Source: an uncultured Verrucomicrobiales bacterium (GTDB taxonomy: Bacteria; Verrucomicrobiota; Verrucomicrobiia; Verrucomicrobiales; Akkermansiaceae). From it: a DNA stretch of 64,000 bases. The position numbers and the translations under genes are program-made. The notes beneath the pieces are model-generated. The model was not told the DNA's origin. It worked only from the letters and a program-made list of their open reading frames with translations, and did not search any database. Positions within the stretch are counted from its first letter, which is position 1. Every line of letters starts with the position of its first letter. The stretch spans positions 19,961-83,960 of the forward strand of contig CASICJ010000027.1 of the NCBI GenBank assembly GCA_949373085.1, given 5' to 3'. This document shows, one piece after another, positions 47,780-49,210 of the stretch.

Positions 47780-49210
47780 CTAAAGAATCTCAGGCGTTCC
47801 ATAGAGTGTGTAGCCAGTTGAATCTTCAATCCTGACGTCAAGGAGCTGTCCGGCCATTCTTTTTGCGTCACCATCAAAGATAACAATCTTGTTCTGGCTC
47901 GTTCGGCCACTAAGTCGCTCTTTATTCGTTTTACTTGGCCCTTCGCAGAGCACTTGTTGAACAGTTCCAATCAATTTTTCGTTTTTCGATGTAGTCAATT
48001 CCCCTTGGATTCGCAGTAAGATCTGATTGCGTTCCTCTTTCACCTTATCGCTCAGTTGCTCGTCCATTTCGGCGGCCGGAGTATCTTTCCTTTTTGAATA
48101 ACGGAAGATGAAGCTGTTATCGAAACCAATTCGTTTCATACAGGCTACCGTCTCCTCAAAATCTTCCTCGCTCTCCCCAGGAAACCCTACGATAATATCT
48201 GTGGTAATTGCGAGATCCGGACGCGCAGCCTGCATCTTCTCGCAGATCGTAAGAAACTTTTCGTTTTTATACGGTCGCCGCATCTTTTTGAGAATTCGAT
48301 CACTTCCGCTCTGCATCGGAAAGTGAATATGTGAACAAAGCTTCGGCAAATAGGTGAAAGCCTCTACCAAATCATCGCGGTAACCGATGGGATGCGGACT
48401 GGTAAAGCGGATCCTTTCGAGCCCCTCGATCTCGTGCACCGCTTCCAAAAGTTGTACGAATGGAGATTTACCATCCACCTTTGGAAACTCGGTCCGACCA
48501 TAAAGATTTACAATTTGCCCCAGCAAAGTGACCTCTCTCACACCCTTGCCTACGAGCTTCTCCACTTCACTAACAATATCGGGAATCGGTCTTCCCCTTT
48601 CCTTTCCTCGTGTATCGGGCACAATACAAAACGAACACCGCATGTTACACCCTTGCATAATACTAACGAAGGAAGTTGCCTGCTGACCCTCTCGAGGAAC
48701 ATGGTCTCTTATCGTATTTTGACTGCCCTCTTCCTCTTCAGTGTCGACCATCCTGGCAGAGATGATTCGATCCTGATTAATCTTAACAATCTCATCCTCG
48801 ACCCGTCCCGTGACCATTTCCACCCCGACCTCGTCCATACGTGTCTTCAGACGACGATTTAAGATACTGTCCACATAGTCGAAAACGCGGTGATACTTTT
48901 GCGTTCCCACAACTAAGTCAAGGTGAGGCACCCGGTCAAAAAGCTCTGATCCTCGGCTCTGGGCCATGCAACCCATGAAGCCATAGACAACATGATCTCG
49001 GCTTTCGCGGTATTTTCCCATCATCCCCATTTTGCCCAAAGCCTTTTGCTCCGCTTGATCGCGGACACTACAGGTATTGACCAGGATCGCATCAGCATCC
49101 TGTTCTTTGGGGGTGAGAGTGTAACCTCGCTCGGCAAACGTCTGAGCAACCTGCTCAGAATCCCGCTCGTTCATCTGTCACCCGTAGGTTTTAATAAAGA
49201 CCTTTGGCAT
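47780..49210 (-). CDS. miaB: tRNA-2-methylthio-N6-dimethylallyladenosine synthase MiaB, candidate selenoprotein with in-frame TGA (49178-49180) at the first Fe-S Cys
   Basis: Extended frame MPKVFIKTYG[TGA]QMNERDSEQVAQTFAERGYTLTPKEQDADAILVNTCSVRDQAEQKALG...SIMQGCNMRCSFCIVPDTRGKERGRP. Confidence 0.9.
49141..49159 (-). promoter_or_regulatory. bSECIS-like hairpin within miaB
   Basis: RNA UCUGAGC-AGGUU-GCUCAGA, 7 Watson-Crick pairs, 18 nt after the UGA; apical loop contains GGU. Confidence 0.65.

Follow-up and report, generated by a model that had tools for sequence, protein, structure and literature searches.

What does a TGA codon mean when it stands where an otherwise ordinary miaB gene should encode a cluster-binding cysteine? 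MiaB is a near-universal radical-SAM (S-adenosylmethionine) enzyme that converts N6-isopentenyladenosine at tRNA position 37 (i6A37) to its 2-methylthio derivative (ms2i6A37). The question is raised by a stretch of 64,000 nucleotides from an uncultured Verrucomicrobiales bacterium of the Akkermansiaceae (contig CASICJ010000027.1; in the following, the window), which carries a miaB gene on its minus strand (47780–49210) with UGA as the eleventh codon. Judged from sequence comparison, we consider it about 93% probable that this gene encodes a selenoprotein MiaB, with selenocysteine (Sec) 11 as ligand of the auxiliary [4Fe-4S] cluster, and Sec insertion at the UGA, taken by itself, is slightly more probable still. 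More generally, many marine Verrucomicrobia appear to build a MiaB in which Sec replaces one of the three cluster cysteines.

The minus strand reads ATG CCA AAG GTC TTT ATT AAA ACC TAC GGG TGA from 49210 to 49178, continues with CAG ATG AAC and stays open until the stop at 47780, giving a read-through protein of 476 amino acids that starts MPKVFIKTYG-U-QMNERDSE. This protein scored 464.9 bits against TIGR01574 (miaB-methiolase), above the curated cut-off of 355.3, and among the NCBIfam models it matched none but those of the ordinary MiaB family and of radical-SAM enzymes; PF04055, PF00919 and PF01938, the TRAM domain included, were found on the database copy of MiaB. The radical-SAM motif CX3CX2C is intact (Cys188, Cys192 and Cys195; 48626–48649, minus strand, as are all positions below). 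Auxiliary clusters of all methylthiotransferases share the motif CX35-36CX32-33C (PMC5352715), and U11-X35-C47-X33-C81 fits this spacing, with the UGA (49178–49180) standing for the first cysteine, Cys47 (49070–49072) as second and Cys81 (48968–48970) as third ligand. Moreover, the protein matched MiaB of PDB entry 7MJV with an E-value of 5.6e-93, and residue 11 lies opposite Cys27 of that chain. From this spacing and alignment, it follows by homology that Sec11 would be an auxiliary-cluster ligand. The original prediction had placed an in-frame TGA at the first cluster-ligand cysteine of MiaB, on which sequence, motif spacing and structural alignment now agree. It had also held that the mechanically called open reading frame, beginning at 49174 and thus two codons past the TGA, drops a cluster ligand; the upstream frame of ATG plus nine codons (MPKVFIKTYG; 49181–49210) is indeed selected at the protein level, with residues fixed or nearly so and codons differing among relatives only synonymously or nearly so.

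The TGA is far from a peculiarity of one assembly. In a set made up of the window genome and 57 relatives (58 in total), a miaB match was obtained for 25 members of the genus; 24 of them, the window included, carry TGA at the same codon, the sole exception (G012) having TGC. Of 81 verrucomicrobial miaB genes, namely the window's and those of named assemblies, 44 have TGA at this codon and the other 37 TGC or TGT. A 24-nt pattern around the site was found in 52 of the 390 genomes searched within the order, its reversed control in none, and one TGA genome from another family (G054) has kept the hairpin described below; in the other Verrucomicrobiota genomes sampled, TGA-MiaB was absent (0 matches). 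A metagenome scan added 110 contigs, about 85 of which are independent verrucomicrobial miaB genes with an open frame past the TGA, this frame extending over ~445–530 codons in contigs long enough. That the TGA reflects gene decay or a mistake in sequencing or assembly is hardly credible under these circumstances: in the window genome, the reading frames of selD and of one tuf gene are indeed broken, and metagenomic miaB genes with TGA from other lineages (L133, L179, L205, L206, L218) have broken frames that look like decay or error, but the TGA discussed here is shared by the 52 genomes and the independent contigs and is followed by a long open frame. Its recurrence in independent assemblies excludes chance and error as a source of the observation. 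Outside the Verrucomicrobia, a further metagenomic TGA match (L204) was a contig-end fragment. Two singletons from other lineages have TGA at the same cysteine and an open frame, and lack a matching hairpin: L221 (near base 4879) and L136 (near base 1031; numbering from the end of the minus strand in either case). Each reflects either an error or an independent occurrence.

On a tree of 101 MiaB proteins, calculated with the Sec/Cys site masked and with changes counted without direction, at least 10 Sec/Cys changes are needed, 7 of which are forced by well-supported branches. The nearest neighbours, L083 with TGA and L089 with TGT, are only ~2% apart. Two of the Cys genes that retain the hairpin pattern (L081 and L084) are placed within Sec clades, as expected of recent changes from Sec to Cys.

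In bacteria, Sec is inserted when SelB and Sec-tRNA-Sec bind a hairpin in the mRNA, the selenocysteine insertion sequence (SECIS). Directly after the UGA, the window gene contains UCUGAGCA-GGU-UGCUCAGA, a hairpin core of 8 bp (49141–49159) with a GGU apical loop (49149–49151), this loop lying 26 nt after the UGA; the 66 nt from the UGA onwards have a folding energy of –19.7 kcal/mol. This agrees with the published bacterial SECIS model (PMC13188914), in which the apex reads N1-G-[G/U]-N-N2: G is first in the loop, the closing pair is A-U, and distance and fold stability are suitable. All 79 distinct TGA sequences have AGGU(U/G/C), and 77 of them form at least 7 of the 8 pairs, compared with 4 of 33 Cys sequences. 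Likewise, the 7 tightest of 277 codon windows for synonymous constraint all overlap the hairpin in TGA genes, whereas 0 of the 8 listed top windows of the Cys genes overlap this region. The codon choice within the hairpin is correspondingly strict in TGA genes (GAG 44/44, CAG 44/44, GTT 40/44) and shows no excess at the same codons in Cys genes (GAG 19 vs. GAA 17; CAG 27 vs. CAA 10). Formal pair counts gave 94.6% paired cells in the hairpin vs. at most 47% for slid versions.

Translation could alternatively start at the ATG two codons 3' of the UGA (49172–49174), yielding a 464-aa MiaB without the first ligand and leaving the upstream codons as a relic. Gene callers pick this ATG everywhere and databases record the 464-aa form: the 120 best protein-database relatives all have 464 aa, start past the UGA and cover 97% of the query. 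Nevertheless, such a start is very unlikely, as the supposed relic is under protein-level selection, the TGA alternates solely with Cys codons, the SECIS is maintained, and a ligand characteristic of every methylthiotransferase would be missing from the product.

A Sec-containing MiaB is furthermore matched by the gene content of its hosts. The window genome encodes selA, selB, tRNA-Sec, a Sec-type selD and miaA, with tRNA-Sec (anticodon TCA) located on the same contig, 5.7 kb outside the window. The selD gene (G000:C8:1589-2519; L253, L254) itself has TGA at its catalytic position (CGG-TGA-ASKL), and is accompanied by a SECIS-like hairpin of its own, the loop of which is GUU; a frame shift, probably an assembly error, interrupts the gene in the window assembly. 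Across genomes, selA was found in 52 of 55 TGA genomes from eight genera, and none of 31 selA-less genomes of at least 90% completeness carries the miaB TGA; searches for tRNA-Sec alone are less clean than those for selA, as other tRNAs score with that model too. That the UGA is instead read as another amino acid, by near-cognate readthrough or by Cys on tRNA-Sec when selenium is scarce, seems very improbable to us. Cys would be tolerated at this site, given that the Cys-MiaB of relatives is functional, but the hairpin and the association with selA point to a dedicated SelB route, and elsewhere in the window TGA acts as a stop in the usual way, terminating 10 of 31 long open frames; the latter also rules out a genome-wide reassignment of UGA. 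Occasional use of Cys by selenium-starved cells is nevertheless conceivable. A TGA-containing EF-Tu gene obtained in the selB search (G000:C26:11649-12514; L010, L016) was rejected as a further Sec site, as frame shifts near its start account for it instead. These breaks on C26 are a warning of local errors in the window assembly.

Several points speak against the proposed selenoprotein and have to be set beside this evidence. Covariation in the hairpin is confined to a single pair (UA/CG/UG), which can be attributed to the strong conservation of the protein. Three TGA genomes are without a selA match, all of them 72–86% complete, and the window assembly, with its breaks in selD and tuf, is itself 81% complete. 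Finally, close relatives manage with the Cys enzyme, and MiaB can therefore do without Sec. On balance, the candidate Sec-MiaB put forward in the original prediction is well supported by the alternation of TGA with TGY among orthologs, the SECIS hairpin and the complete presence of selA, selB and tRNA-Sec.

In the mechanism we favour, SelB with Sec-tRNA-Sec would bind the hairpin and Sec would be placed at residue 11, as in established bacterial Sec biology. The N-terminal [4Fe-4S] cluster would, by homology, be held by Sec11, Cys47 and Cys81 and be the site of methylthio formation, and with miaA present, methylthiolation of i6A37 by Sec-MiaB is predicted. According to the literature, the methylthio group is carried by the fourth iron or by the sulfides of the auxiliary cluster. 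The cluster must either persist or be reassembled. A softer ligand could be of advantage: a selenolate might ease reduction, rebuilding or rescue of the three-ligand cluster after oxidation or loss of sulfur, which would suit bacteria living in oxygenated sea water. We tentatively prefer such a softer, more readily re-reduced ligand to a change in redox potential or a neutral Sec/Cys exchange, while regarding it as somewhat less than an even bet.

We could not find a description of a Sec form of MiaB in our literature searches (subscription-only papers were outside their scope), and databases hold the protein N-terminally cut off. The 119 prokaryotic selenoprotein families listed in a review of May 2026 include neither MiaB nor MtaB nor RimO (PMC13188914), in line with the novelty suspected from the beginning. 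In domains, radical-SAM motif, second and third ligands and score, the window protein resembles known MiaB (TIGR01574; structures 7MJV–7MJZ), but its first ligand is UGA-encoded where 7MJV has Cys. With known bacterial selenoproteins it shares a UGA at a functional Cys, a model-like bacterial SECIS, SelA/SelB/SelC/SelD and the existence of Cys homologues (PMC13188914). The radical-SAM members of that catalogue are TIGR04167 and TrsS, and its Fe-S selenoproteins, including an Fe-S oxidoreductase-like protein, an Fe-S cluster domain protein and HdrA, comprise none that modifies tRNA (PMC13188914). HdrA of methanogens is also an Fe-S protein with a Cys-to-Sec exchange that gene callers misread as a stop (PMC12054007); it differs in fold, reaction and organisms, and the comparison does not imply that its Sec binds a cluster. 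If our reading is true, Sec-MiaB would, judged by the 2026 catalogue, be the first selenoprotein to act at the MiaB step of translation, and it would probably provide a natural example of a selenium-ligated [4Fe-4S] cluster in a radical-SAM enzyme. Of special interest is the long dispute over whether the auxiliary cluster is a source or a relay of sulfur: a natural Cys-to-Sec exchange that affects a single ligand, together with Cys sister enzymes that differ by only a few percent, offers matched pairs for testing it. Database entries of MiaB for this marine group would moreover lack their first 12 residues.

The tRNA-Sec of the window genome (L001:1501-1594) has A36-A37-A38 after the anticodon. 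This is the motif recognised by MiaA and MiaB, and the Sec tRNA may accordingly be a substrate of the Sec enzyme. A more far-reaching and, to our mind, doubtful idea is that the UGA doubles as a selenium switch, with low selenium leading to a stop at codon 11 and perhaps a restart two codons on. The restart product would then be a MiaB without the methylthiolating cluster, and ms2i6A on tRNAs reading UNN codons would report the selenium status. Given the A36-A37-A38 of tRNA-Sec, MiaB and the insertion of Sec might even be linked by feedback; we would be rather surprised if this scheme held.

As to other methylthiotransferase genes, the window genome has a single miaB: neither the second intact copy nor the decay that had been considered as a possible objection to the original prediction was seen. 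Inspection by eye assigns a full-length paralogue on C9, which has no internal stops, most probably to MtaB, and a fragment at a contig end (C30) to the C-terminal part of RimO. In one metagenome contig (L237), a decayed partial second Sec-miaB is found ~0.8 kb from an intact copy; it lies on the minus strand near base 7075, numbered from the end of that strand, and has kept the TGA and a similar hairpin.
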